DNA of 64,000 nucleotides from NCBI GenBank assembly GCA_029948415.1, contig JAJIZT010000001.1, positions 730,016 through 794,015 of the forward strand. Reading direction: 5' to 3'. The notes beneath the pieces are model-generated. The model was not told the DNA's origin. It saw only the letters and a list, made by a program, of their open reading frames with translations, and made no database searches. This document shows, piece by piece, positions 8,126 through 48,743 of this stretch (the first letter of the stretch is position 1; each line of letters opens with the position of its first letter). Both the position numbers and the translations under genes were made by a program. Source of the DNA: Cenarchaeum symbiont of Oopsacas minuta (lineage in GTDB: Archaea > Thermoproteota > Nitrososphaeria > Nitrososphaerales > Nitrosopumilaceae).

Positions 8126-8147
8126 TTTAGTGAATATATCAATAATC

Positions 8148-10010
8148 ATGACGGCAGATGAGAAAGCGATCAAAAGTTTTCGATCAGAAATACAAAAAAT
8201 ATGTGATGATGAAGGATTAACTTTAGATCGTGCATTTCCAAGATGGATATGCGAACATATTTTGGGCATTACTAAAAGTGATGTAATATCAGAAGCTGTA
8301 TCTATTGGTGGAAAAAATGATTATGGCATAGACATTTTTCATATTAATGAAGATGAAGATAATCAGTACGTATGTTGGATACAGGCAAAATATGGAGAAA
8401 TGTTGGATCGATCAATTGATAGAGATGGCATAATATCTTTTGGTAATACCATCAAATATTTGGAAAATTGTCCAAATCAAGCAAATAAAACATTTAAACA
8501 AAAATCTGATGAATTCAAAAAAATTATTCATGATAATGCAGATATAAAGAAAAGAATGATTTACGTTGTAACAGGTAAACTAAACGAGCAGGCAAAAGAA
8601 CAAATTACACGTGATGATTGGAAAAAGAATTTTACAGGTTATCAAAGTCCAATAGAATTTGAATTATTCGAAATGGATAAAATTCTTTCATATGTGAGAA
8701 AACCTCACACGCCATTGATTAAAATTGAATACGATGGTTCTGTGATAGAACGAAAAGATGATCTTACTAATAAAAAATCAGTCACAGGATACGTAAGTGC
8801 TAAAAATATAGTCAATATTGTTGAAAAACATCATGCAACATTGTTCTTTGAAAACCCTCGCAATACATTGGGTCTAACTAGTACAAATAAAGAAATTCTC
8901 AAAACACTTAGCAACAATGAATTAAAAAAGAGTTTTTGGAAATTAAATAATGGTGTTACTGGAATCTGTTCAAATTTTAAAAAAATTTATGATGATCCTA
9001 GATCATATGAAATAGATAATTTTAAAGTTGTAAATGGAAGGCAAACCACATCAACATTAGAAAAATTTAAGGGCGAATTGGAGGATGTATTTTTGTTAAT
9101 AACCATTCATGAAACAAAAGATGATGATGAACGAGATCGTATTAGTCAAGCTACAAATACACAAAATCCAATCAAACCTGTCGATCTAATAACTAATTTT
9201 CAGGAATTACGTGATTTAGAAATGGAATGTAATAATCAATTTAGTAAATTTTATTTTGAACGACAAACAAAAGGTCTTGCCGATATGTCTATAAAAAAAG
9301 AAATAACACCTAGAAGAATATTAGAAAAAGAAGAAACAGCTAGGTGTTATTATGCATATGCAATTGATCCAAGATTAGCAATCATGCCTGATAAAGATCT
9401 ATTCACTAAAAAACTCACACTATTTGCAGGCGAATCCCATTTTGACAAAGTTTTTAAAGATCGGAAAATAAAAGAATTAATCATACCACACATATTCATG
9501 AATATGATAGTTGCATTATTAAAAGAATACCAAAGAAAATTTAAAGATGACGAAGATAATGAGGATTATTCAAAATACAAATGGCTTTTAAGTAAAAAGC
9601 TTGTAAAATACTATATTTTACGATTTATAAATAAAGCTATGGAAGACATTGAACAATCCAAAAGGACAACTATTGAAAATAACATAATTCAAATTTTTTC
9701 AAAATTAGAGAAAAATGAGGAACTGCCAGATATATTTTTAGACATTGCAAAAAAAGGACTTGAATTTTTCATAATGTGTTATAAACTTACTTGGTGGTAT
9801 AATTACCCAAAAGATCTTGTGAAAAAGATTGAAGATCCCAACCGACCAGAAAAGCGAGAAGATCTTCCTAGTGCAGCAGATATTGTACGAGTGTTAAAAA
9901 TGCAGGAAAATGTATCTAGTTCAATATTTGAAAATAGATTAACTATAATAAAAGCAGCTGGAAAAGATCAAATCAAAGACAGACTTAGCAAACTTGAGGA
10001 TTGGAAATAA
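8148..10010 (+). CDS. AIPR-family protein with nuclease-like N-terminus
   Basis: A 620-aa member of the AIPR (abortive infection phage resistance) family. The core AIPR block FWKLNNGVTGIC followed by VVNGRQTTSTL (about residues 263-304) and TNTQNP is clear; most members have NGCQT where this has NGRQT. The N-terminus carries GIDIF at about residue 59 and IQAKY near 77, the D...QxK pattern of PD-(D/E)xK nucleases. I chose ATG 8148 over the GTG at 8130 because of TATA box spacing. The gene is followed directly by three same-strand genes. By position after dndA it probably belongs to the phosphorothioate-dependent interference module; that role is inference. Confidence 0.85.
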   Translation: MTADEKAIKSFRSEIQKICDDEGLTLDRAFPRWICEHILGITKSDVISEAVSIGGKNDYGIDIFHINEDEDNQYVCWIQAKYGEMLDRSIDRDGIISFGNTIKYLENCPNQANKTFKQKSDEFKKIIHDNADIKKRMIYVVTGKLNEQAKEQITRDDWKKNFTGYQSPIEFELFEMDKILSYVRKPHTPLIKIEYDGSVIERKDDLTNKKSVTGYVSAKNIVNIVEKHHATLFFENPRNTLGLTSTNKEILKTLSNNELKKSFWKLNNGVTGICSNFKKIYDDPRSYEIDNFKVVNGRQTTSTLEKFKGELEDVFLLITIHETKDDDERDRISQATNTQNPIKPVDLITNFQELRDLEMECNNQFSKFYFERQTKGLADMSIKKEITPRRILEKEETARCYYAYAIDPRLAIMPDKDLFTKKLTLFAGESHFDKVFKDRKIKELIIPHIFMNMIVALLKEYQRKFKDDEDNEDYSKYKWLLSKKLVKYYILRFINKAMEDIEQSKRTTIENNIIQIFSKLEKNEELPDIFLDIAKKGLEFFIMCYKLTWWYNYPKDLVKKIEDPNRPEKREDLPSAADIVRVLKMQENVSSSIFENRLTIIKAAGKDQIKDRLSKLEDWK

Positions 10011-12828: not shown

Positions 12829-15024
12829 TTATGTCATATTTTTTATATATTCATAATCTAGTAATTTAAAGTCTATAGAGTACAAATTTGCAATATTTTG
12901 GATTTTCTCAATTGCATGCTCTTTATTTATCGCAATCATTGCAAATTCTTTATGTCGTAATAATTCTTTTGCTACTAATTTTTTCTCTCTTAGTAATATC
13001 GGTAATTCTAGATCAATAGGTGGAGGTTTTACTAATATGTCATAAATTATCGCTTTGGTTTTACCAGTTTTTTTATTTTGTCTCAATACGCGTCCTCTTC
13101 TTTGTATATACTGTTTTGGGTTTCCAGAACTCGCCATGATTATTGCAGTTTCTACTGATGGTATGTCTACGCCTTCATCAAGACATTTAATTGCAGTGAT
13201 ACAATCATAATGTCCTTGAGATAGTTTTTCAAGAATCATCCTTCTATCTTTTGTAGGATTTTCAAATGTTATTGAGGTACTAACTATTTGGTTGTCATTT
13301 AAGATTTTTTTAACATCGTTTAACTGTATTGTATTATTCAATGATGCGATCGGAGAAGGATTTGACGTGCAATAAATTAAAGTTTGTTTTATGTTAAATA
13401 TTGAATTTATAATTTTTTCAAGTATGAGTAATTTGTTTTGTGCATTTGCAACAAGATTCGCTCTTTGTATTTCTGCATTATAATTATATTCTTGTCTTTG
13501 ATTTTCATCTATTTTTTTCATAGAATATTTAGCAGCTATTTTTTTTGTCAATATGTTGTACATTTCCATTTCATCTGGAGTCAATTCTGCATAATATGGA
13601 TGGTATTCATAATTGCAAAGATAGCCTTTGTCAATTGCAGTTTTCAATGGCAGATCATATACTACTTTATTGAAATATTTGTATAACAAATTGGTTCCTT
13701 CAGAATCATAATGCCTGATAGGAGTTGCACTTAAACCCAAACGTCCCTCATATTGATCTAGTAGTGCAAATCTAGATACTTGTGATCCTATATTATGTAC
13801 TTCATCTACTATCAATATTTTTTCTGCATTCTGAATTTTCAAAATAAATCTCTTAAAATCATCATCATTAATTGTTTTATGTGTTGCATACACTATTACA
13901 TGCGATATTATATAATTTCCATTGAATAATTTCATGTTGAAATCATTCATAATATATTCAAATTCATTTCTCCAAGTATGATTTTCACCATAACAGATGA
14001 TTTCGCGTCCTACATGAATTTTATCCTCATCTGAAGCATCCAGATTGTATTCCATTAATTCTTTTTTCCATTGATCAACTAAATGAGTTTGAGGACAAGC
14101 TATAACAGTAATTGTTCTTTTTTTTGTTTTTTGAAAGTTATTAATACATCCTAACGCTGTGATTGTTTTGCCAGTACCTGTGGCCATGGAAAATATACCT
14201 ACATGATTATTTTCTATCCAATTATTTCTAGCAGTTAATTGATATGGTCTTAATTTTTTATCATGTTTATCAATTTGTTCTTTTTCATATTTAATTAATT
14301 GATGAATTTTATTTAATGTTTCTCTATATTCTTTATCTGATTTTGGGGATATTTTTAATAAATGATTTTTAACGGCAATAGGAATATCAAAAATTTTTAC
14401 ATGAGGTTCATCATTATTCCAAAGTTTATCAAATGATTTTTGATCATCATCAATAGCTTGTTTATTTGTTTCATCTTTCCAATTACAAAATGCTTTGAAA
14501 TTTTCAAAATTTTTAGTCCAACCAAAATTTGTTTCATTAATTGAACCCACAAATGATATGATATTTTTATTTGCATAATACACGATACCTAATTTTTCAT
14601 GAAATATGCCATTTCCATTTTCAGTTAATGCAATTTTTATTTCTAATTGTGGTTTTCCTTGTATTTTGTGTACTAGTAGATATGCCATTAGTTTTGAAAA
14701 ATAGTATTTAATATTTTTAGGATCATTATGCAAATCAGCAAAAAATGATTCTGTAATAATTTTTTCTTTCTCAACTGTACTTTTTTCTAAAAGATCTTTG
14801 TCATGGGATGAAAAATTTGGACTGGTCAATAATTGAATTCTACCATTATTTTCTATAAATTCTATAATCTCTTTTGAAATTGTTATAAACGATGTTGATG
14901 AAAAATAGCCAGCTTTTCTTTGATATAGTATGGAATTTTTTAACATGGGGCGATAAAAATCCTCAACAAGATTATCGTTTATTGAATTCCAACTTAATTT
15001 AGGCTCAAATTGATCTTGCATCTC
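12829..15024 (-). CDS. PLD-like nuclease fused to SF2 DEAD/DEAH helicase
   Basis: The N-terminal ~200 residues form a phospholipase-D-like domain with FHEKLGIVYY (HxK) followed by FVGSINETNFGW, as in restriction-associated PLD nucleases. An SF2 helicase follows: motif I MATGTGKTIT near residue 280, motif II DEVH near 407, and motif VI QRRGRVLR near the C-terminus. I place the start at ATG 15024, 4 nt after the HNH gene's stop, because the family begins with the LSWNSINDNLVEDFY-type segment; the frame is open to 15096. The architecture is common in type III-like, DISARM-like and Dnd-associated restriction modules. It probably works with the upstream HNH protein, with which it forms a two-gene operon. 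Confidence 0.87.
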   Translation of the reverse strand, partial: EMQDQFEPKLSWNSINDNLVEDFYRPMLKNSILYQRKAGYFSSTSFITISKEIIEFIENNGRIQLLTSPNFSSHDKDLLEKSTVEKEKIITESFFADLHNDPKNIKYYFSKLMAYLLVHKIQGKPQLEIKIALTENGNGIFHEKLGIVYYANKNIISFVGSINETNFGWTKNFENFKAFCNWKDETNKQAIDDDQKSFDKLWNNDEPHVKIFDIPIAVKNHLLKISPKSDKEYRETLNKIHQLIKYEKEQIDKHDKKLRPYQLTARNNWIENNHVGIFSMATGTGKTITALGCINNFQKTKKRTITVIACPQTHLVDQWKKELMEYNLDASDEDKIHVGREIICYGENHTWRNEFEYIMNDFNMKLFNGNYIISHVIVYATHKTINDDDFKRFILKIQNAEKILIVDEVHNIGSQVSRFALLDQYEGRLGLSATPIRHYDSEGTNLLYKYFNKVVYDLPLKTAIDKGYLCNYEYHPYYAELTPDEMEMYNILTKKIAAKYSMKKIDENQRQEYNYNAEIQRANLVANAQNKLLILEKIINSIFNIKQTLIYCTSNPSPIASLNNTIQLNDVKKILNDNQIVSTSITFENPTKDRRMILEKLSQGHYDCITAIKCLDEGVDIPSVETAIIMASSGNPKQYIQRRGRVLRQNKKTGKTKAIIYDILVKPPPIDLELPILLREKKLVAKELLRHKEFAMIAINKEHAIEKIQNIANLYSIDFKLLDYEYIKNMT

Positions 15025-15028
15025 ATCA

Positions 15029-16414
15029 CTATTTTCCAAGAATCCATCTTCCAAACCCATATTCGTGACAGATCTTATAATGACTTTGGATCTCATTTTC
15101 CCATAATCCCTTTAAAGAGAGTCGGTAGAGAGATTTTTCCATCAATTCCATAGTTTTTGAATATTTTTGATCACGTCCAATAAGATTGTCTACATATTTT
15201 TCTTCTGGAAGTGAACTGCTTTTTTTTAGGTTGCATTCTTTACAGGAAAGAACCAAATTCCATGCATTATCATCAAATATGTACGACCATGGTATAAAGT
15301 GATCAACATGGATGCATTTCTCTATTAGTTGATTGTTGCAATAAAAACAGTGATCCGAGTATCCCAAAAATACTTTTTTGTATTTTGTAAGCGAACCTCG
15401 TTCTGCTTCCTCATTGTCAACTTTTGCAGCAAGCATTGGAAGTCCATGATTTACTCTCTCCAAATATTTTATCCATTCTGCTAAAAGTGCACGCATTAGC
15501 AATCCGTAATTTTGTCTAAAAAATTCATGTGCTTCAGGTTTGAGAAATATTTTCTTTGCATCATCATCATAATCATAAAATACGTTGGCATCGGCGACAG
15601 AATTTCCACATGTAATCCGTTGAAATCTCTGTACGACCATTCCTTTTTTCTTTCTGGCCTCACCAAAAACATTTTCAAGTATGCCATTTCTTGCTTGTTT
15701 AATTTTATTCTGATCAAGATGTTTAAACTTGTATGGAGGTTTATCTCCGAATGCATCTTCTAGTATCTGTATCACCATAGGTCTTTTTTTAATGTGAAAG
15801 TCTTGTTTTATTTTAAATTTATATCTCTGATACCAATAATGTCTTAGAAACTCATTTGCAAGATATTCATATTTTATCTCCTTTGTCTGTCCTGTGGGTA
15901 AATTGTTTTTGCAATAATCTAATAAAGTTTTTCCTAGAGCAAATTTGTAAGTGTTATCCTTTCGTGATTTTGATATGATTGACAAAAATATTGTCCTCAT
16001 ACTCATATCGCCATCTTGTGACATTGGTTTGCGGATCTTTGTGCTCATTGTCGGCATATCTATTGAAATATTTGGATCCACTAGTCGGAAGAGCATAGTT
16101 CGTTTGGTACTACTCCAGTCTACGATAATCCCTTTTTTTCGTAGCTTTACAAGCTCACTGCTAGTTTGTATCATCAAAACGTTTGAAATTCTTTTTGGAC
16201 CCCACAAAGAAGGTGGAAGATGTAATTGTAATGCTACCCATTCATCTAAATCATGCTTTTTGTGCCAAACAGGATTGTCTTGGTATTGTAACTGTAATGA
16301 ATCTCCTGTATGAGATACGCCAAGATTTTTTACAGTATTGCCTATTTGTTTAAGCCCATGTAAAAGAAGATTTGGGATTTTTTGACGTTGAATTGGATCT
16401 AATACTGATTGCAT
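15029..16414 (-). CDS. HNH endonuclease, 461 aa
   Basis: The C-terminus has a clear zinc-type HNH nuclease: CFYCNN, then HVDHFIPWSY with catalytic DH, then NLVLSCKECNLKKSS completing a four-Cys site. The N-terminal ~140 residues look like a separate helical or winged-helix module. The middle (KDNTYKFALGKTLLDYC and onward) is shared with the protein at 35659-36717, which lacks the N-terminal module, so the window holds two paralogues. It is the first gene of the operon with the PLD-helicase. A restriction role against non-phosphorothioated DNA is inferred from position. Confidence 0.85.
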   Translation of the reverse strand: MQSVLDPIQRQKIPNLLLHGLKQIGNTVKNLGVSHTGDSLQLQYQDNPVWHKKHDLDEWVALQLHLPPSLWGPKRISNVLMIQTSSELVKLRKKGIIVDWSSTKRTMLFRLVDPNISIDMPTMSTKIRKPMSQDGDMSMRTIFLSIISKSRKDNTYKFALGKTLLDYCKNNLPTGQTKEIKYEYLANEFLRHYWYQRYKFKIKQDFHIKKRPMVIQILEDAFGDKPPYKFKHLDQNKIKQARNGILENVFGEARKKKGMVVQRFQRITCGNSVADANVFYDYDDDAKKIFLKPEAHEFFRQNYGLLMRALLAEWIKYLERVNHGLPMLAAKVDNEEAERGSLTKYKKVFLGYSDHCFYCNNQLIEKCIHVDHFIPWSYIFDDNAWNLVLSCKECNLKKSSSLPEEKYVDNLIGRDQKYSKTMELMEKSLYRLSLKGLWENEIQSHYKICHEYGFGRWILGK

Positions 16415-16463
16415 TTACTTTTTTTTCCATGTTTGCGTTTATGTACTTTTTTAAAACATAAAA

Positions 16464-16541
16464 GTATGAGGTAAGCTACTCCGTATTTTTGTGCGTAAAT
16501 GCCAAAACTTGATAATTATAGGCATGGACGTGATCTCATAC
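16464..16541 (-). mobile_element. MITE-1 copy, 78 bp, with perfect 8-bp target duplication
   Basis: A short non-coding element begins GTATGAGGTAAGCTACTCC and ends GTGATCTCATAC. It is the reverse-orientation relative of the copies at 22958, 26557/31834 and 48631. It is flanked by direct repeats ACATAAAA (16456-16463 and 16542-16549). The 8-bp duplication is the size made by IS66-family transposases, which suggests mobilisation in trans. Confidence 0.8.
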
Positions 16542-16562
16542 ACATAAAAGTATAAAGTCTGA

Positions 16563-16767: not shown

Positions 16768-17727
16768 TCAAGTTTTAGAATCTTTTCGTTCTTTTAATTT
16801 TGAGACAAGTCCTGCATAAATGAACGGTAATATCGTAGTCGCCTCTGCATGCAATGTAGCCTGTTTTGCATCTTGTGTTACCTTGCCCCATGAGATTGCT
16901 TCCTTTACTTGTGCACCGCTGAGGCTACCATCAAACTCTTGTGCAGTCGTGATGTAAAATGCATAGTCTAGTCCTTCCCTATACTGATTCCACCACAGTG
17001 TATGGTGTTTTGAAATTCCACCACCAATCATGAACGCACCTGATTTTTTGGCTTTAAAGATCAAGTCAGATAGCAGTTCTGCATCACCTAGTAGATTCAG
17101 TTTAAAGTCACGATGTTTCTGTGCAAAGAGCCAGATTTGGTTCCCTACAGCGCCATCTACAATTCCTGGAACTATGACCTTTACATCATTTTTGTAAGCC
17201 CAGTAAAGATACGAATCCTCTCCAAGATGTTTTCCAATCATCTTGCAGATATCTACACTGGTCATCTCCCTTGTCCCGTTCTGGTATTCTTCTTCCAAAA
17301 ACAATTGCATCTTTTCCTCGATGAGTGGACCATAGCTATCTACTGGTACAAGAATATTACCTAATCGGTGAATGTTCTGATCTGCCAGTTTTTTATCATC
17401 CATGCTAAAAGATCCTTCCATATAATGCGAAAAATGCCTTGCAATGTCATGGTCTAACGAGCCACAAGTTACCATGGCAACATCAAACCATCTGTTTTTA
17501 ATCATGTCTCGAATTATTCCCCTAGTCCCAGTTGATACTATGGCAGCCACAAAGGATACAAATTTCAGACATTCCTCATCTGATATCATCTCTGTCAAGA
17601 TCTTTAATCCAACTGACAGATTTACCGATTCAAACCCACCTGATTTGGACATTTCTTCAAATATTTTCTCAATAGATGTATCCTCATCAATCTCCATATC
17701 CTTGACTGGTCTACCAATCTCTATCAT
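16768..17727 (-). CDS. dys: Deoxyhypusine synthase
   Basis: NAD-dependent enzyme that transfers the aminobutyl group of spermidine to one lysine of aIF5A, whose gene lies at 62233-62643. The protein is 319 aa, normal for archaea. Recognisable blocks are VSTGTRGIIRDMI, TCGSLDHDIARH, and near the C-terminus SWGKVTQDAKQATLHAEA, whose SWGK lysine corresponds to the family's catalytic lysine. A TATA box sits 26 nt before the ATG, so the mRNA is probably leaderless. It is a core gene surrounded by accessory DNA. Confidence 0.95.
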   Translation of the reverse strand: MIEIGRPVKDMEIDEDTSIEKIFEEMSKSGGFESVNLSVGLKILTEMISDEECLKFVSFVAAIVSTGTRGIIRDMIKNRWFDVAMVTCGSLDHDIARHFSHYMEGSFSMDDKKLADQNIHRLGNILVPVDSYGPLIEEKMQLFLEEEYQNGTREMTSVDICKMIGKHLGEDSYLYWAYKNDVKVIVPGIVDGAVGNQIWLFAQKHRDFKLNLLGDAELLSDLIFKAKKSGAFMIGGGISKHHTLWWNQYREGLDYAFYITTAQEFDGSLSGAQVKEAISWGKVTQDAKQATLHAEATTILPFIYAGLVSKLKERKDSKT

Positions 17728-18383: not shown

Positions 18384-18659
18384 ATGAAAATCCTAGTCGA
18401 TGAAAATATGGATGGTATGGATGAAAAACTCAAAGAATTAGGTTATGACGCATATAGTGTACGAAAGCTCCGAAATGATGGAAAACAACTCGGTTCCGAC
18501 TATTCTGTGATAAGTTATGCTCGTGAGAATAACATGGTCGTAGTCACAAAGGATTCCGAGTACAGTAAAGCAAGTCAAGAAAACAATTTTCCACTAATTC
18601 TCTTGGATGATAATTTTCTTCTCGACATAATCATAAAAAAATTAAAAGAGTTATCATAG
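18384..18659 (+). CDS. DUF5615-type PIN-like protein
   Basis: A 91-aa protein with the DUF5615/Mut7-C pattern of small PIN-like nucleases: N-terminal KILVDENMDG (first acidic residue), then GSDYSVISYARENNMVVVTKDSEY with the conserved D in VVTKD. Such proteins are often toxins paired with a small DUF433-type antitoxin, but I see no plausible antitoxin frame immediately upstream or downstream. It may be an orphan or have lost its partner. The start ATG is preceded by a weak purine-rich stretch. Confidence 0.75.
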   Translation: MKILVDENMDGMDEKLKELGYDAYSVRKLRNDGKQLGSDYSVISYARENNMVVVTKDSEYSKASQENNFPLILLDDNFLLDIIIKKLKELS

Positions 18660-18837
18660 TCAGATTCAAGCTAGCTTTTCATCATTCCCTAAAATTTTCA
18701 TAAATGCAATTTTGATAGAAAAGACTCACAACATTAACTACACGACCACAAATCTGCATCTCTGAATTTTAGGGTAATTTCCATCACCATTCTCAAAGTT
18801 TAGAAGACATGTTCATTATTATGCAGATCGTGTAAAA

Positions 18838-18966
18838 ATGAAAGTGATTGAATGTATGCTCATTTTAATACTCATTGGGATTTTGTCTGTGATGAATGTT
18901 TATGCCATAATTTATAATTCTAAAAATTATGATGTACATAATATTTCAAAAATGAGTGATCTGTAA
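18838..18966 (+). CDS. Possible small membrane protein, 42 aa
   Basis: A short frame encoding one predicted membrane helix (MLILILIGILSVMNVYAII) near the N-terminus followed by a polar tail. It is too short to judge by composition alone. Nothing nearby suggests a function. A real gene is possible but unproven. Confidence 0.3.
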   Translation: MKVIECMLILILIGILSVMNVYAIIYNSKNYDVHNISKMSDL

Positions 18967-19133
18967 TTCATGTATAATCAATCGAGTCATCTGATGGCCT
19001 TATGTTTTAGCGAATAAAGCATCACGGTAAACCACGTTAGTTGATCAGAGCTGATCGCCATCGAATTTTCTTAAAAAATGATTTTTCATATACGTATCAA
19101 AAACCACATTAAGCAGTGCAAGATAGTAATCTT

Positions 19134-19208
19134 GGGCTCGTTGCATAGCATGGATAGTGCGAACGCTTGCGGAGTGTTAGGTCGAGGGATCGAAGCCCTT
19201 CGGGCCCG
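19134..19208 (+). tRNA. tRNA-Arg(GCG)
   Basis: A complete cloverleaf can be folded by hand. The acceptor stem is GGGCTCG paired with CGGGCCC plus discriminator G. The D stem is GCAT/GTGC. The anticodon stem is AACGC/GTGTT around loop TTGCGGA, giving anticodon GCG, which reads CGC (Arg). The T stem is GAGGG/CCCTT. CCA is not encoded. A T-rich CTTTTT follows at once and probably terminates transcription. TATA-like CATATACG lies about 45 nt upstream. Confidence 0.92.
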
Positions 19209-19304
19209 CTTTTTGTAAATAGCGAAACCCTGCCGTATGTTATATGATTTTAATGGAGATTGTCGATCAGTCGATCAGGATTTGTATGTTTGTAACGGCA
19301 AGGG

Positions 19305-19347
19305 TGGGGCATAGAAGGTGCCCCAATAACCATCTCTTTTTTTTTCT
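19305..19347 (+). terminator. Strong GC hairpin followed by long T tract
   Basis: TGGGGCA and TGCCCCA (19305-19311 and 19319-19325) form a perfect 7-bp stem with a 7-nt loop. A run of T's follows at about 19337-19346. The GC-rich stem stands out in AT-rich sequence. It may terminate a small RNA downstream of the tRNA or end the tRNA read-through transcript. Confidence 0.5.
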
Positions 19348-19371
19348 TATAATCTACTTTATGCATATCCA

Positions 19372-19379
19372 TATTTTAA
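19372..19379 (+). promoter_or_regulatory. TATA box of the ATPase-SIR2 operon
   Basis: TATTTTAA is centred about 31 nt before the ATG at 19407, compatible with a leaderless or near-leaderless transcript for the two-gene unit. Confidence 0.4.
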
Positions 19380-19406
19380 TAATGAATGCATTCATAACAC
19401 AATGCC

Positions 19407-21764
19407 ATGCGAATTGACATCAAACCAAAAGCTGCTGACCGTTTACATGAAAACGAAGTAAGCGATCTTTTTACTTCGCAGGATACGTATGCCAAAATCA
19501 TGAACAGAGAAACCGTATTCATCACGGGTCCAAAAGGCACTGGCAAATCCATGATTTTGCGCTACATGTCAATGCCGATACAGTCAGAACGTCAAAAATC
19601 CAAGAAACAGATATCGTATGATAAAAAACATTGTGGTGTGTACATAAATTGCAGTAAGCATTATTTTGGTCAAATCCATGAACCCAATTCAGACATACAG
19701 CAGACACTAATTTGGAAAGAAAATTTCATACACATGTTTAATCTTACGATATGTCATACACTGTTTGAAAATATTGAAAATTCAAAAAAATATCCTGTAT
19801 TTCAGATGGCCGAATCAGAGGAGGCTGCAGCATGTAAGAAAATTTCGATTATTTTAGATTGTGAAGAAGTTTATTCCTTTGAAGATATTAGTAATAAAGT
19901 TAGAAAAAAGATGATGTATCTATATTCAAATTTTGATAAAAAAGAAACAGGTACGACAACGGTAATTTCATTTATTTCAGAATTAGAAGAAATTCTAAGA
20001 AATAAAATCTCAATGTTTAAAAACAAGTCACTTTGCATATTATTAGATAACTATAATGAACTAACAGACATACAGCGTGAGATAATTAATGACATTATAT
20101 CATTACGAACTATTTTCAAGATCGCAACACTACCACCAAATTTTTCAACAATGAGAGAATCTGGTAAATTCCTTAGTTTTATGAATGATTTTGACATAGT
20201 TAATATCGGCACTACAAATCTTAGCAGAAAATCGCCTAATTTTAATGCCACAAAATGCTTCCTAAAAGAAGTTGCCAATAAACGTCTGAAAGAATATAAT
20301 GTAAATATTGAAATTTTACTAAGTGCAGATAACCTCGAGATTTTCAAACATAAAACATCATATGTTGGGTTCGAAAATTTTGTTTTGTTGTCATCTGGAA
20401 ATGCAAGAATGTTTCTTAGATTATTGAATATTGCAATTCAAAAATGGTCGGATACGGGAAAATCCATACCTCAATCGATTCAACAACAAGCAGCGTACGG
20501 ATTAGCCTATGACTTAATGAGAAAGGATACGAATTTCTTATCAAAGCCTCATAGATCTATAATTCGTTCATTTATTTTAAAAGTGGGATTATTATTTCAA
20601 AACTATCACAAAATTACAAAAAAATATTACTTGCAATTAGGAATAAAAGATCCCGAAAAAATTTCAGATGATACACGTGATCTGTTATCTTTGGCCACAG
20701 AACATAATTATATAATGCAATCGCCAGTTGATCGTACATCACGTGAAGGGTACAAGCTTGAATCTATTACTTTGCTGAATGCATTATTACCTTATTTTGA
20801 TTTGGCATTAAGAACGCACCAAGTACGGGAAATATCTGCAAAACAACTCAACAACTTGATCAATAAAGACAGTACAGTCAAAAATTTAAAAATAATCCTA
20901 GGTAAAAAAACAATAGACCTGAAACCAAATAATATGCTTTCTTCATATATGAATGACGAAAAGAATTCAGTTGTGAATCATAGTAAATCAAGAAATGTAA
21001 TAACAAAAGAAGTACAACAGATTGTAAACCATATTTCAGATAATCAATTAGGGGTTTTTATCGGATCTGGGATTTCTAAAGAGATCGGATATCCTACAGG
21101 ATCTGATCTTGCTGAGAAAATTGCACTACACTTTGAAGGAGATTATGTGGGTGAAGATCTTACTGCAGTTGTTAATAGAGTCTTAACACAGTGTGAGAAA
21201 GGAGATTTAGTCCAATTCATTAAAAATCTATTTAAAAATATTACAGAAGAAAAATCAACATCATATACAAAGCTTGCAGAATTGCAACTTGATGAGATGT
21301 TTACAACAAATTGGGATCATGCCATAAAAAATACCTTTAAAAAATTACATAAAGACATCGAAGTTGTTGTGAGAGATGAACACATACCATTAATTGGAAA
21401 TCATAAACCAATAATATACAAATTACATGGGGATTTTGATCATCCAGATCTGTTTGCAATAACTGAAGACGATTACAATGACATTGAAAATACACGTTCT
21501 GGCATTATCAACGCCTTGAAAGTTATTCTTATGCGCAAACATTTTTTATTTTTGGGATATAGTATGGAAGATTTAGATCTATTAAAAATTATTGGTATGA
21601 TAAAAAAATTACAAGGCGAAGTTCCGCTCACATCATATGTGGCAATTTCAGACGTATCAGAAGAAAAAAAGAAGAATTTTGAAAAAATGGGCATAATTTT
21701 AATCCCCATCAAAGGCGAGACATTAATTAATTCCATACACAAAGAGATAACGAGGAAGAGATAG
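19407..21764 (+). CDS. ORC/CDC6-like P-loop ATPase fused to SIR2-like domain
   Basis: A 785-aa two-part protein. The N-terminal ATPase has Walker A GPKGTGKSMILR near residues 40-51 and Walker B CILLDNYNE near residue 212, in the style of ORC/CDC6-like or STAND defence ATPases. The middle is helical. The C-terminal ~240 residues are a SIR2-like NADase-type domain: FIGSGISKEIGYP (about 550), TTNWDHAI (about 632), YKLHGDFD (about 671) and FLGYSMEDLDL (about 715). SIR2 domains in defence proteins deplete NAD+ once triggered. The gene ends directly against the start of its partner. Recognition as a defence gene is by domain logic; the exact family is unknown to me. Confidence 0.8.
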   Translation: MRIDIKPKAADRLHENEVSDLFTSQDTYAKIMNRETVFITGPKGTGKSMILRYMSMPIQSERQKSKKQISYDKKHCGVYINCSKHYFGQIHEPNSDIQQTLIWKENFIHMFNLTICHTLFENIENSKKYPVFQMAESEEAAACKKISIILDCEEVYSFEDISNKVRKKMMYLYSNFDKKETGTTTVISFISELEEILRNKISMFKNKSLCILLDNYNELTDIQREIINDIISLRTIFKIATLPPNFSTMRESGKFLSFMNDFDIVNIGTTNLSRKSPNFNATKCFLKEVANKRLKEYNVNIEILLSADNLEIFKHKTSYVGFENFVLLSSGNARMFLRLLNIAIQKWSDTGKSIPQSIQQQAAYGLAYDLMRKDTNFLSKPHRSIIRSFILKVGLLFQNYHKITKKYYLQLGIKDPEKISDDTRDLLSLATEHNYIMQSPVDRTSREGYKLESITLLNALLPYFDLALRTHQVREISAKQLNNLINKDSTVKNLKIILGKKTIDLKPNNMLSSYMNDEKNSVVNHSKSRNVITKEVQQIVNHISDNQLGVFIGSGISKEIGYPTGSDLAEKIALHFEGDYVGEDLTAVVNRVLTQCEKGDLVQFIKNLFKNITEEKSTSYTKLAELQLDEMFTTNWDHAIKNTFKKLHKDIEVVVRDEHIPLIGNHKPIIYKLHGDFDHPDLFAITEDDYNDIENTRSGIINALKVILMRKHFLFLGYSMEDLDLLKIIGMIKKLQGEVPLTSYVAISDVSEEKKKNFEKMGIILIPIKGETLINSIHKEITRKR

Positions 21765-22727
21765 ATGGATAGTGAATTTCAAGATCAAATGTTAGATAAA
21801 TATGATGTTTATCTTTGCTCATCAGGATATGAAGAAAGGACGTGTGGTGGCATACAGAATATCAAAAATGATACAAAATTTGGACGCTCTTTTATGATAT
21901 TATTGGAACCCGATGATCCGAGATTACTTGAAAGTAATCGAGCAAATGCAGAAAAAATTAGAGAAAATCTTGCAAGACATTCTAGCATGCCAAAATCTGT
22001 TAGTTTCAAACCCGAACAAATATCGGAATTTACTAATTTTTTATATGAAAATACAAGTAACCATCAAAATATTCTGATAGATGTTACATCTTTTACAAGA
22101 TCTTTTCTTTATTCAATTTTAAATGTATGTACACGAAAATATCTCAACACTCATCTAATATATTCAGAGCCAGAAAAATATACCAAAAATTATGCACAAG
22201 GTCTAGAGGATGTAATCATAATGCCATCAAATCCTGGAATTCCAAATCAGTCTAAAAAAATTCTATTAGTTTTGTTTTTAGGGTGGGAAAATATCCGACT
22301 TGAATCCTTGATAGAGCGATGGGAACCCACCAAAGTCATTACCATGATAGAATTTGCAGATGACGAAAGAGGAGATTGGAATAAAAAAACCAGAGATAAT
22401 TGTAAAAATATAATCGATAGTTATGAGTGCATGGAAATTCCTGCATTAAATCCACGAGAATCGCTTGCACGGTTAGAAGGAGTCTATAATCATTATGGTG
22501 AAGAATATGACATATGTCTTGCAAATGGAGGTCCCAAAGTTCACTGTTTTGCCATATCGGAATTTGCATCTAGGCACCCTGAAGTACAGATAATATATCC
22601 AAAGCCATACAGATGGCAGCAGGAGTCATTATCAATGGATAATATTATTCCAACCTCATCAGGAATTGGCGAAACTCATTTTTTCAAATTTCCAATATGC
22701 GCACCAATAGAAGAAATCCCAGCTTGA
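21765..22727 (+). CDS. Unknown Rossmann-like partner of the SIR2 ATPase, 320 aa
   Basis: The ATG follows the SIR2 gene's TAG without a gap, so the two are one operon. I do not recognise a named family. The protein appears to be two alpha/beta halves. The first begins YDVYLCSSGYEERT and has ILIDVTSFTRSFLYSI; the second has ILLVLFLGWENIR and later CLANGGPKVHCFAIS. Both late segments resemble the strand-turn-(G/F)(T/P)(K/R) helix of CARF-like nucleotide-sensing folds. A sensor or regulator for the SIR2 effector is a reasonable guess, not a demonstration. It ends 16 bp before an IS66 element. Confidence 0.65.
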   Translation: MDSEFQDQMLDKYDVYLCSSGYEERTCGGIQNIKNDTKFGRSFMILLEPDDPRLLESNRANAEKIRENLARHSSMPKSVSFKPEQISEFTNFLYENTSNHQNILIDVTSFTRSFLYSILNVCTRKYLNTHLIYSEPEKYTKNYAQGLEDVIIMPSNPGIPNQSKKILLVLFLGWENIRLESLIERWEPTKVITMIEFADDERGDWNKKTRDNCKNIIDSYECMEIPALNPRESLARLEGVYNHYGEEYDICLANGGPKVHCFAISEFASRHPEVQIIYPKPYRWQQESLSMDNIIPTSSGIGETHFFKFPICAPIEEIPA

Positions 22728-22743
22728 AAATATTAGAATATCT

Positions 22744-24368
22744 GTAACTGTCTAGAGTTTTGAAGTACCATCCACAAGATATTGCATCATATAGTCATGA
22801 AAGTTTAGATTTCGTTGCCTACATGTCTCCTTTACACTCATCAATATCTTGTGTGATGTAGCGCCATCATCTGTTCGATGACCGTTTGTAATCTTTCGTA
22901 TTACCACGTTTGGCTTCTCTGCAGTATTATTATGTGAATCAGTTCCAGTCTTCAAGAGTATGAGGTCACGTCCCTGCCTATAATTATCAAGAAAGTTCTA
23001 GATTTACGCACAAAATTACAGAGTATCTGACCTTGTACCTTCAAGAACGTGAAAAGCATGTCTTGTTCACGCTTTAGTCGTTTGACAAATCTGATACAAT
23101 TCTTTTCTGTATATTTTTTGGATAAAAGAGACGATAAACGACGCTCGAGTTTTTGTGTATAACATTTGATTTATCACGAATGTTTACAGCATCATGTGAG
23201 TCATTTAGGATCTTTTTCAAACATTTTCCAAAAACAATAAACTCTTTTTTGGGATTTTTATACTGTAGAGTATCTCTCATATAATGAACATGGCATCTTT
23301 GATGACTGTTTCCAACGTAATTCCATGCAGACCATGAATCACTTGTCAGTGTATCCTTTTAACACTCTCATTGGAGCTATTCTACCACGTGATTTGTCAA
23401 TCTCATATATGGTCGTCCATTTTCCAACAAATGCCCACAACCAATGATTCTTCCCGTTGATGCGCCAGCTAGTCTCATCCCCATGTATATTCAACTCGGT
23501 TTTTAGATCTCTTATCATCTGTTCATATAATGGGCCAAATGCTGTAGCGGTTTTTTTTACTGCGTGATTTATGGTAGATTCATTCATGTGTATGCCGTAT
23601 ATCATTTCTAATAGTTGGGATATTTTTTGATATGATAATCCAAGTGTTTTGAGTACAATTAAAAATACTGCTAGTCGGATTCCAAATCTTTCATTTGGTA
23701 ATGCAGTATGGATTTTTGGCGTGATTGTTTTTTTGCAACATTTACAATATCTTCTAAATATCGTATTGCATACCTGTGCTGGAATAATATCTTCTACTAT
23801 ACGTGTGTATTTATGCACAATTTTGGATAGTTTGTTTCCGCAGACATGACATGATTTTTGATCCACCTCGGTTTTGTTATCAATGTGAACTGGTCGTTTT
23901 CTGCTGGTTCTTGCATGTTAAGTTTTATAACTGAATCTGGTTTGTTGGGTTTTGCACGAATATTCTTTGCTGTAAGAGCATTTATCGTGATTTTTAATTC
24001 TTCATTCTCATTTTTTGTCTGTTGTGTAGTTTCTTGATATTCTTGTATCGCCTTTCCTTGTTGCTGTATCTTTTCTCCTTGTTGTTGCATAGTTTCTTTA
24101 CATTCTCGTATCGCTTTTCCTTGTTGCTGTATCTTTTCTCCTTGTTGTTGCATAGTTTCTTTACATTCTCGTATTGTTTCTCCTTGTTGTTTGTTTTCCT
24201 TGCGTGATAATGCAAGTTCTTTCTCTAGATTCTCAGATCTAGGACAAATGTGGTCTATTTTTTCATTATTCATGAACGATTTTTTGTATTATACACCTGA
24301 TCCAAAAATGTAATGATGAAAAATATTGGATCAAATGGTCAGATTACTTCAAAACTCTAGATAGTTAC
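22744..24368 (-). mobile_element. IS66-family element, copy 1, degenerate
   Basis: Its ends GTAACTGTCTAGAGTTTTG and the inverted CAAAACTCTAGATAGTTAC match copy 2 at 27407-28892. The transposase is broken: a coiled-coil N-terminal frame (23797-24273), a catalytic middle (23339-23866) and C-terminal pieces (22752-22955 and 23074-23280) lie in different frames. Compared with copy 2 it has an extra QQQGEKIQQQGKA-type repeat, a 10-nt difference at the junction of the first two frames, and a MITE inserted at 22958. The flanking 8-mers (GAATATCT and CTTTTATC) do not match, so the target duplication is lost. Confidence 0.88.
22958..23038 (+). mobile_element. MITE-1 copy inside IS66 copy 1, with 8-bp duplication
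   Basis: An 81-bp insertion, GTATGAGGTCACGTCC to CTGACCTTGTAC, interrupts the IS66 C-terminal frame. It is flanked by CTTCAAGA on both sides (22950-22957 and 23039-23046). The uninterrupted sequence is seen in IS66 copy 2, where CAGTCTTCAAGAACGTG is continuous. This proves the element moves as a discrete unit. Confidence 0.9.
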
Positions 24369-24466: not shown

Positions 24467-26503
24467 TTAAGTTAATTTGTTATTGTATATTTTGATAATA
24501 TAAGGAATTGATTTTTTTACATCATCGTCAGATATTATAATTGATCTAAAATCCCCCTTATAATGATGACTTGTTTTAGATATATCCTCTATAAACTGAG
24601 AGGATTCAATTATTCCATCTTCAATTTTTGTATTATAGATTAAATATATTTGATTTTTTTGAGCAATCATTTCACAAATATTCACATTTTTATCATAATT
24701 TTTAATCGAACCCTGTTTTTTTATCATAAAAAATCCAGTATTTTTACAAGATTCCAATATGGTGTTTTTTAATTTATGCCATAATTCTTTAATTTCCATA
24801 CTATCTAGATATTCTTTTTCAGACAGATCATCATCATCAAACATAAAAGTATCTGACACTTCTTCAGGTATTTTCCATATTTGTAGTGCCTTGTTTGCAA
24901 ATAATTGTGCACGTTTTATAATATCATCTTTTTTCCATTTTGTATAATCACATAGTTCACGAGTAATTTTTAGATGGCTTTTACCATATTCAATTTTCTT
25001 TTTCTCAAAGGAGAGATTGCTAATTTCAGGGTTATGGGCGGTTAATGTTAAATTACCAATTGTATGTAAGAATTTATCATGTATAAATTCCCATGAATCT
25101 CCTAAATGTTTTTTCCATTCTTCAGTTATTGTTTGTGGAAGAATATGTTCAATTTGTAATTTTTCTCCATCCACAACTTCATTATTATCTTGGTGTTCTA
25201 ACCTAACAAGCATATACTTACAGATATTTTTATTAGAATACAATTTTGATTCAATTATTTTTTCTCTAAATAGATCATTTCTAGGAAATCTCAAATTTGG
25301 TGCGGTTTTGAGCATAAGTACACGTTGTATGCTCTTTACATATTCTTTATAGTCGATATGAGATATCAATTCGGTAAACATTCTATTTGCAGCCTTCATT
25401 CCAGTATCACATACAGTACATCGAAGAAGATAGCAATCGACTAATAAAAATATTATAATCGTGTCATCAATTGTAATTTTGTTATTGGCATAATCTACTA
25501 AAATTTTTAATAATAATGAATGAGCTATAGTAGTATCTTGATCAAGTATATATCCAATTACTTTGTTTAATTTATCCGATTCATGATCTTTGAAGATCAA
25601 TTTTTTATATTGTTTAGAACATTCATAAATTTTTTCTATTAATTCGCCCATATTTTTATTACGTGCGTGGTCTTTAAAAAATTCATAGAGGTTAGCTTTA
25701 GAAACAAATACTCGTTGTTCCATCATCAGGTAATTTCGTAAAAATTCATCGAGGTTGCCGTCTTCACCACTATCGTTTTCCATTTTTTGCCAATATTTTT
25801 TATAAATTGTTTTTTGCACATTAACATCAAATTTCATTAATATATAATTACGTACTAGATCGGTATTTGATAATGCCAAACCAGTAGAATTCATACTTTC
25901 AAAAATTTCTTGTGGATTATCTCCACCGTCTTTTTTAATGAGTATGCTTACCGTAGTCAAACTACGAAAACCACTCCAAATTTTATCCGGATCTACTTTA
26001 TCATTAGATATTTTATTTTTAAAAATATTAAAATTTGCAACAATATTATTTGATTCTTCAGATTTGCTATTATCGAGTATATTCTTAAATGATCCATCAT
26101 CAGTATCAGTTAAAACTAATTTATAATAATCAGGTAATTTTTGTTGTGCAGTTGTATTAAAAAGTATCTGGTCTATTTTTCCTACTGTTACATTTTTTTT
26201 TTTCATATTATTTTCAGTAAGATAATTCTTTAATGCTGCTAAAAGTAACATTAATGTTGTGAGACGTTGTTGTCCATCAATTATTTGATATGGCATTACA
26301 TCAACATTGGCAGGAACTACATCTCCAACATACGTGACTGCACCAATAAAATGTGGAACATTATTTTTATTTATTTTTAAAATATCTTCATACAATCGCA
26401 TACATTGTTTTTTACCCCAATTGTATCTGCGTTGATATATTGGTACCGTATATTGAAAATTATTGCCTAAAAGTTTCCATACTTCTAATTGCACCGCCTC
26501 CAT
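24467..26503 (-). CDS. DUF262-DUF1524-DUF5655 protein (GmrSD/SspE-like)
   Basis: A 678-aa modification-dependent restriction-type protein. The N-terminal DUF262 (ParB/Srx-like) has YQRRYNWGK and the diagnostic IDGQQRLTTL near residue 76, a nucleotide-binding motif. DUF1524 follows with EHILPQT (about residue 450) and IGNLTL, the His-Me finger nuclease core. The last ~110 residues (GFFMIKKQGSIKNY to the end) look like DUF5655. Single-chain proteins of this plan include GmrSD type IV enzymes and the phosphorothioate-sensing SspE. Being in the same island as dnd, a phosphorothioate-linked role is possible. It lies between IS66 copy 1 and a split MITE, and reads opposite to dnd. Confidence 0.88.
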   Translation of the reverse strand: MEAVQLEVWKLLGNNFQYTVPIYQRRYNWGKKQCMRLYEDILKINKNNVPHFIGAVTYVGDVVPANVDVMPYQIIDGQQRLTTLMLLLAALKNYLTENNMKKKNVTVGKIDQILFNTTAQQKLPDYYKLVLTDTDDGSFKNILDNSKSEESNNIVANFNIFKNKISNDKVDPDKIWSGFRSLTTVSILIKKDGGDNPQEIFESMNSTGLALSNTDLVRNYILMKFDVNVQKTIYKKYWQKMENDSGEDGNLDEFLRNYLMMEQRVFVSKANLYEFFKDHARNKNMGELIEKIYECSKQYKKLIFKDHESDKLNKVIGYILDQDTTIAHSLLLKILVDYANNKITIDDTIIIFLLVDCYLLRCTVCDTGMKAANRMFTELISHIDYKEYVKSIQRVLMLKTAPNLRFPRNDLFREKIIESKLYSNKNICKYMLVRLEHQDNNEVVDGEKLQIEHILPQTITEEWKKHLGDSWEFIHDKFLHTIGNLTLTAHNPEISNLSFEKKKIEYGKSHLKITRELCDYTKWKKDDIIKRAQLFANKALQIWKIPEEVSDTFMFDDDDLSEKEYLDSMEIKELWHKLKNTILESCKNTGFFMIKKQGSIKNYDKNVNICEMIAQKNQIYLIYNTKIEDGIIESSQFIEDISKTSHHYKGDFRSIIISDDDVKKSIPYIIKIYNNKLT

Positions 26504-48630: not shown

Positions 48631-48711
48631 GTATGAGGTCACGTCCCTGCCTATAATTATCAAGAAAGTTCTGCATTTCCGCACAAAAATACGGAATAGC
48701 TGACCTCATAC
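48631..48711 (+). mobile_element. MITE-1, intact 81-bp copy
   Basis: The reference copy: GTATGAGGTCACGTCC to GCTGACCTCATAC, with 11-bp perfect inverted ends GTATGAGGTCA/TGACCTCATAC. The flanks do not match because the left side is the truncated IS-A end. Length equals the copy at 22958-23038. Confidence 0.88.
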
Positions 48712-48743
48712 ATGAGATGACCCTATACAAAAATACTAAGAAT

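Follow-up and report, generated by a model that had tools for sequence, protein, structure and literature searches.

A rare ORC/CDC6-like ATPase-SIR2 fusion beside a tandem-CARF protein in an archaeal symbiont: a candidate two-gene abortive-infection switch

The gene pair and its surroundings

The window analysed is a 64,000-nucleotide stretch of the genome of a Cenarchaeum symbiont of Oopsacas minuta (1.63 Mb in 11 contigs, 96% complete). Two open reading frames on its forward strand form the pair described here. Gene 1 (19407..21764, +) is a single ORF of 785 amino acids that encodes an ORC/CDC6-like AAA+ ATPase with a C-terminal SIR2 domain (PF24389 and PF13289), and gene 2 (21765..22727, +) encodes a tandem-CARF protein of the CARF6 type with 320 amino acids. 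Zero bases lie between the stop of gene 1 and the start of gene 2. The sequence-only reading of this DNA had already given the two ORFs, their zero spacing and the P-loop ATPase plus SIR2 plan, and profile searches bear it out. A tRNA-Arg (gcg) gene (19134..19209, +), placed before the pair in the same reading, lies 197 nt upstream of gene 1; it is context only and stands outside the system. We considered tRNA-targeted integration and rejected it: the last 18, 22 or 26 nt of the tRNA-Arg have no second exact copy in the window. A non-coding RNA part was likewise rejected, as the Rfam gathering search of 18500-23500 returned no match.

The claim that the pair sits in a defence island also holds. 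Ten window proteins were scanned in Pfam, and defence-type genes are present alongside IS66 transposases: an AIPR gene (8130-10010), a PLD/DEAD-ResIII helicase gene (12829-15096; together with an HNH gene it spans 12829-16414), two HNH genes in all and a GmrSD gene (24467-26503). The same scan named a deoxyhypusine synthase gene (16768-17727), in keeping with an archaeal host, and gave no match to a BREX family among the ten proteins. Two inverted, MITE-like repeats of ~80 nt (16461-16548 and 22951-23041) enclose the deoxyhypusine synthase gene, the tRNA-Arg gene and the gene pair, and related ~80-nt repeats occur at 48631-48712 of the window and on another contig of the genome (C7). Further downstream, an ORF (23797-24273) next to an IS66 transposase contains an array of 21-nt repeats (24020-24208). 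A scan counted 25 promoter-like sites against 20.6 in shuffles and 2 terminator-like sites against 1.7, and is not used as evidence.

The ATPase part of gene 1

The ORC/CDC6-like part of gene 1 covers residues 8-488 (19428..20870, +) and comprises the AAA+ core followed by helices and strands that may make up a winged helix. PF24389 scores 181 bits against a cut-off of 27, and the ATPase is of the ORC/CDC6-STAND type. A PDB sequence search with the ATPase profile gave one P-loop match to an ABC transporter and nothing else. The Walker A motif GPKGTGKS (residues 41-48; 19527..19550, +) carries Lys43 at a position that is Arg in 55 of 59 relatives; the other four, all of the PRTase group described below, have Lys. 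In the Walker B motif LLDNY (residues 212-216; 20040..20054, +), Asp214 is kept, as in 59/59 relatives. The next residue is Asn215, where 58/59 relatives have Asp or Glu and the exception, L078, has Gly. The second Walker-B acid is missing in 2 of 60 rows, the window protein and L078, which are the two with a long C-terminal extension. These residue counts, like the tree below, were made without L008, L009 and L080 (duplicates or near-duplicates). Because Asn215 departs from nearly all relatives, ATP turnover of gene 1 may be impaired.

The SIR2 domain and the rarity of the fusion

The SIR2 domain occupies about residues 533-765 of gene 1 (21003..21701, +), as delimited by PF13289, a ThsA-like model (2.9e-36) and an alignment with ThsA (6lhx). 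In that alignment the catalytic residues Asn635 (in TTNWD) and His674 (in YKLHGD) are kept, and the domain is likely, on this evidence, to be NAD-destroying. The SIR2 match ends ~20 residues before the C-terminus, and the structure model of gene 1 is poor in this part, with block pLDDT values of 30-69 beyond residue 520. An NAD-depleting effector carrying its own switch, as had been proposed, would fit both the retained SIR2 residues and the ATPase type.

A phmmer search with one SIR2 domain sequence as the query, which can miss distant SIR2 domains, found none beyond the window genome's own (63 loci, further phylum and Bacteroidota loci, 5 viral contigs, L115-L143). The ATPase-SIR2 fusion was present in one genome only among those searched and is thus rare among these sequences. 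Gene 1 matched 6 phage records, in all of them by the SIR2 part alone, and 208 plasmid records, none of which reached 80% query coverage; the best 20 of the 208 were all matches to the SIR2 part. The sole other SIR2 gene noticed near a relative is annotated as a separate 'SIR2 family protein' and begins 468 nt beyond the CARF gene of L053, a locus whose ATPase is split over two ORFs and which lies outside the ORF set and the SIR2 search. A literature search by titles and abstract openings found, among the matches listed, no description of an ORC-CDC6/SIR2/CARF system. The SIR2 variant may nonetheless be included already in the CARF classification of Makarova (2020), among the nucleotide-targeting effectors of Nicastro (2023) or in the work of Burroughs and Aravind (2020).

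The tandem-CARF protein

Gene 2 had been taken for a partner of no known family. This does not stand: it is a tandem-CARF protein that matches CARF6 models of PADLOC (4.3e-28), and the family of the ATPase is in Pfam as well. The first CARF half spans about residues 10-152 (21792..22220, +) and the second about residues 163-298 (22251..22658, +), both with approximate limits. According to the structure model, gene 2 is two CARF folds in one chain. Foldseek returned CARF/SAVED chains mixed with NKCC1 and Dot1L rows, which VIA-align separated, giving CARF or SAVED in the first 38 of 50 rows with Can1 as the best structural match; when the CARF profile was run against PDB sequences, its five matches looked like chance. 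Glu23 and Arg25 of the first half are present in 44/44 relatives and Asp106 in 42/44, and Arg178 and Lys258 of the second half are present in 44/44. The motif NGGPK in the second half presumably resembles the GGTK turn of CARF proteins. The invariant charged residues probably form a nucleotide pocket. Structure alignment A4 holds the window protein and 44 of 50 contig loci (without L060, L067, L071, L075, L078 and L080), and A5 holds the window protein and 43 of the 50 (as A4, also without L092).

Contig C7 of the same genome carries another CARF gene with an intact ORF (L007:1938-2900, -), 96% identical to gene 2. It carries just the last ~117 nt of gene 1 and is bounded by two ~80-nt repeats. 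The two copies differ by 16 silent and 16 replacement changes (raw count), with 586 silent and 2294 replacement single changes possible in the gene, so at least one of the two copies seems constrained.

Conservation of the ATPase-CARF pair

Of 398 genomes drawn from the phylum, 70 gave ATPase-family matches at E <= 0.001; most of these were limited to short P-loop segments, and 6 passed the cut-off. The CARF profile matched 6 genomes in a draw of 398. Both full-length genes stand side by side in five genomes: the window genome, G008, G045, G247 and G277. The CARF profile took sequences from three of these five, and G247 and G277 contributed none. G447 has a partial ATPase match. In G006, a lone ORF of ~251-255 residues (L058:5687-6442) gives a weak CARF profile match (E 1.9e-4), with no ATPase of the PF24389 family seen by eye in the fetched 12 kb.

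A scan of genome contigs seeded on the ATPase P-loop alone yielded 50 loci (two of them, L075 and L080 from Ralstonia pickettii, are nearly the same), and a CARF ORF follows directly downstream on the same strand in 50/50, at gaps of -100 to +22 nt. The profiles behind the ATPase and CARF ORF calls were rebuilt from their own matches, which makes their E-values non-independent; before rebuilding, the CARF profile of 5 sequences already found 64 ORFs at E <= 1e-3. On plasmids, tblastn with the G045 ATPase matched 155 records, 129 of them from Klebsiella, and gene 2 matched 3 weak records. Eight plasmid stretches were fetched; a CARF ORF follows the ATPase by profile in 7, and the eighth, L053, was left out. 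Viral contigs searched with gene 2 alone gave no relative; searched with an ATPase alignment, they gave 5 loci, of which 4 hold both ATPase and CARF and one (L112) holds neither by profile. PF24389 was found in 10/345 genomes (E <= 1e-8), 7/291 and 7/359 (both E <= 1e-12) in further surveys.

Among the 29 stretches L115-L143, seven had no CARF ORF at first pass: L117 (the L078 locus, cut short), L124-L127, L134 (at a contig end) and L142. Once the filters were off, L142 too proved to have a CARF ORF right after the ATPase, though a divergent one (E 4.3e-5). The weak Bacteroidota ATPase matches L124-L127 have no scoring CARF ORF, which counts against the two-gene switch proposed below. The ATPase-CARF pair is conserved across genomes, the outcome that the sequence-only reading had set as a test.

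Exchangeable effectors and DNA methylases

The ORF set contains 62 loci with the ATPase, two of them fetched twice (L008 = L065, L009 = L099). Twenty-nine have an upstream gene of one cluster, identified by Pfam as HD-CE in the samples tested (3/3); 17 carry an N-terminal domain cluster identified as protein kinase (3/3 tested); and 7 have another upstream cluster identified as PRTase-CE (3/3 tested). The effector slot beside the ATPase-CARF core is exchanged, being filled by HD-CE, PRTase-CE, a kinase or, in the window, SIR2. The kinase class thus consists of two genes or one fused chain, similar to the arrangement in the window.

In a tree of 60 ATPase rows, the kinase class forms one clade (100/99), the PRTase group a weaker one (91/66; L051 is placed in it by operon position only), and the HD-CE rows together with five others a third (100/100). 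The window ATPase is a long branch that joins L078 weakly (88/62), a join on which the tree program warns. At L078 (L078:5818-8628, Armatimonadetes UBA11051), where the ORFs contain unread bases (X), the ATPase bears a C-terminal extension of ~380 residues that looks deoxyribosyltransferase/TIR-like by eye and has no Pfam match; it is possibly another effector fusion. L009 has an N-terminal extension that is TIR-like by eye, for which Pfam names nothing.

A motif search found a C5-cytosine methylase on the same strand within 4.5 kb at 24/29 HD-CE loci, 0/17 kinase loci, 0/7 PRTase loci and 3/9 others, and L010 and L074 have one on the opposite strand. At 6 of the 7 PRTase loci, an ORF with an xPPY motif, a candidate DNA methylase, lies on the same strand, and two have ThyX. 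These neighbours suggest a self/non-self DNA theme for many relatives. On the Klebsiella pneumoniae plasmid pKPHS2 (L052, the one fetched among the 129 Klebsiella records matched by the ATPase), methylase, PRTase-CE, ORC-CDC6-like and CARF genes are consecutive. In Allomuricauda aurea (L072:4047-7686), a ThyA-like gene (by eye) and a C5-methylase lie directly upstream of the ATPase-CARF pair, and no HD-CE cluster member was assigned.

Proposed mechanism and alternatives

We give about even weight to the gene pair being a two-gene abortive-infection switch. We commit to this reading because of the relatives' common theme, the hints of DNA reading and the improbability of a Cas10-made messenger. 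What the relatives have in common is an ORC/CDC6 ATPase and a tandem CARF, together with an adjacent or fused enzyme whose predicted action is to attack nucleotides or to phosphorylate proteins. Both the ORC/Cdc6 fold and the methylase neighbours suggest that the ATPase reads DNA. The kept SIR2 residues, the CARF fold, the conserved pairing, the exchange of effectors and the defence-type neighbourhood also speak for the switch. Against it count the lack of a methylase among the ten window proteins scanned, the unusual Asn215, the poor model of the SIR2 part, the occurrence of the SIR2 fusion in a single genome and the want of a ligand source, since the genome gave no Cas10 match and just a sub-threshold SMODS match. 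In the proposed switch, the ORC/CDC6-like ATPase, probably bound to ATP and assembled as an oligomer on DNA, would serve as the platform; the tandem-CARF protein, whose two CARF folds probably hold a nucleotide pocket, would act in complex with it as co-sensor; and the SIR2 domain at the C-terminus of gene 1 would be the effector. When the sensor half meets its trigger, invader DNA and/or a CARF ligand, the complex would rearrange, the SIR2 domains would be freed or clustered, NAD+ would be hydrolysed, and the infection would be stopped at the loss of the cell. The CARF protein could control the ATPase-SIR2 protein as activator or as brake. A wider claim, which we rate as rather unlikely, is that ATPase and CARF together act as the general sensor of an immunity that reads nucleotides and DNA and works without Cas10 or a CD-NTase. 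In it, the ORC/CDC6 part would read invader or unmodified DNA, the tandem CARF would read a nucleotide self-made or invader-released, and the effector slot would be refilled with a kinase, with nucleotide-destroying HD or PRTase enzymes or, as here, with a SIR2 NADase. Under the same claim, C-terminal fusions may switch by ATP binding and not by turnover: the window protein and L078, alone among the 60 rows, are without the second Walker-B acid.

In a reading that we find somewhat unlikely, the CARF protein is an off-switch: it would bind a nucleotide or signal of the healthy cell, or cleave it as a ring nuclease might, and would keep the ATPase-SIR2 protein quiet; losing CARF or its ligand in infection would free the toxin, in the manner of a toxin-antitoxin pair with a sensor antitoxin. 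The invariant Glu23, Arg25, Arg178 and Lys258 could be catalytic, and the strict downstream linkage of CARF to the ATPase agrees with such a role, as does the intact CARF-only copy on contig C7 with its apparent constraint on at least one copy. That lone copy may, however, be a transposed fragment, and no sign of inhibition was seen. It is improbable, in our judgement, that the window pair is a decaying or inactive variant. Its lost second Walker-B acid, its long branch in the tree and the IS66 genes and repeats that adjoin it among transposons point that way, but both ORFs are full length with the SIR2 residues and the CARF invariants kept, and AAA+ proteins that have lost this acid can still bind ATP.

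CARF and SAVED folds bind cyclic oligonucleotides, and the CARF/SAVED-like fold of gene 2 would suit an effector downstream of type III CRISPR or CBASS, a reading that we consider very improbable. Cas10-type palm matches (PF22335) occur in 4 of 26 genomes with PF24389 matches, by a profile whose control was also positive in E. coli and which may pick non-Cas10 proteins; the window genome, 96% complete, and the other 22 of the 26 have none. The letters GGDD occur in five ORFs of the 63 loci, none Cas10-like by eye. A sub-threshold SMODS match in the window genome (E 1.5e-5, 461-aa frame) is probably a CCA-adding enzyme. We rejected standard cOA signalling on the Cas10 counts, and a Cas10-made messenger for the window pair is unlikely. 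Hardly credible to us is a role outside defence, in which the pair would serve to replicate or maintain a mobile element, with gene 1 as an ORC/Cdc6 initiator. The available text of one study describes Orc1/Cdc6 homologues on thaumarchaeal mobile elements (PMC6563490), and the region has MITE-like repeats on both sides; an initiator would nevertheless hardly be expected to carry SIR2 or to have CARF as its partner, and the relatives carry other conflict effectors.

CARF proteins are present here in genomes mostly without detectable Cas10. The two-gene switch, if true, would couple a DNA sensor of the ORC/CDC6 type to the depletion of NAD+ and would open a route to the signals that CARF proteins detect apart from CRISPR.

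Comparison with known systems

The sequence-only reading could not match the pair to Thoeris, Avs, DSR or pAgo-SIR2 systems, and the PADLOC search that it proposed agrees: the two genes do not match one named system, the models of Thoeris, DSR2 and pAgo-SIR2 cover the SIR2 part only, and no Avs model is among the PADLOC matches listed for the pair. Among PADLOC models the SIR2 domain of gene 1 is nearest to that of Thoeris ThsA, with whose solved structure it aligns. However, ThsA joins SIR2 to a SLOG domain, and the best ThsA model matches at its SIR2 positions only (7-236 of 478), the SIR2 domain of gene 1 is C-terminal and fused to an ATPase, and gene 2 is a tandem CARF and not the TIR protein ThsB. 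DSR2 scores 45 bits against an NCBIfam cut-off of 1400, and its SIR2 domain is N-terminal instead of C-terminal, followed by a long C-terminal region. The Aga_SIR2 models of pAgo-SIR2 reach 1.5e-6, and the partner here is a CARF protein and no Argonaute.

Can1, the tandem-CARF nuclease of type III CRISPR, has two CARF folds per chain like gene 2, as far as the available text describes it (PMC6981274); in contrast, gene 2 has no nuclease domains, and no Cas10 was detected in the window genome. BrxC of BREX is described, in the available part of its source, as an ORC/Cdc6-clade AAA+ ATPase with a wHTH that serves as the scaffold of a DNA-modification-linked defence (PMC12839542); it shares the ATPase type with gene 1 and is a precedent for a DNA-reading role. 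A family with Zn ribbon, kinase, AAA+ and CARF parts was described by Makarova et al. in 2014 and, to judge by the available text, combines an AAA+ ATPase with CARF as the window pair does, with a fused kinase (PMC4012209). The window pair instead encodes CARF in a gene of its own and has a C-terminal SIR2 as effector; a further difference is Lys43, which stands where most relatives have Arg. The single-chain relatives L122/L129 and L143 have an N-terminal kinase-like part (by eye), an ORC-CDC6-like part and CARF, and L143 and L134 are rich in Cys early in the chain, which resembles the Zn ribbon described for that family.

The HD-CE or PRTase-CE/ORC-CDC6-like/CARF6 operons (PF24389, PF24390, PF24391; PADLOC CARF6) contain the same pair in the same order; their effector is a separate upstream gene, often accompanied by a DNA methylase, and they are without the SIR2 fusion. 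With PF24389 above its cut-off and a co-oriented gene of the CARF6 type immediately after it, the window pair fits this ORC-CDC6-like/CARF6 family. Two archaeal genes that had looked like orphans are in this way linked to a defence-like core that is widespread and whose effectors are exchangeable. The pair looks like a rare version of a widespread, little-studied antiviral-type gene-pair family, whose ATPase-CARF core is already known from these models and in which the SIR2 version is the unusual part.
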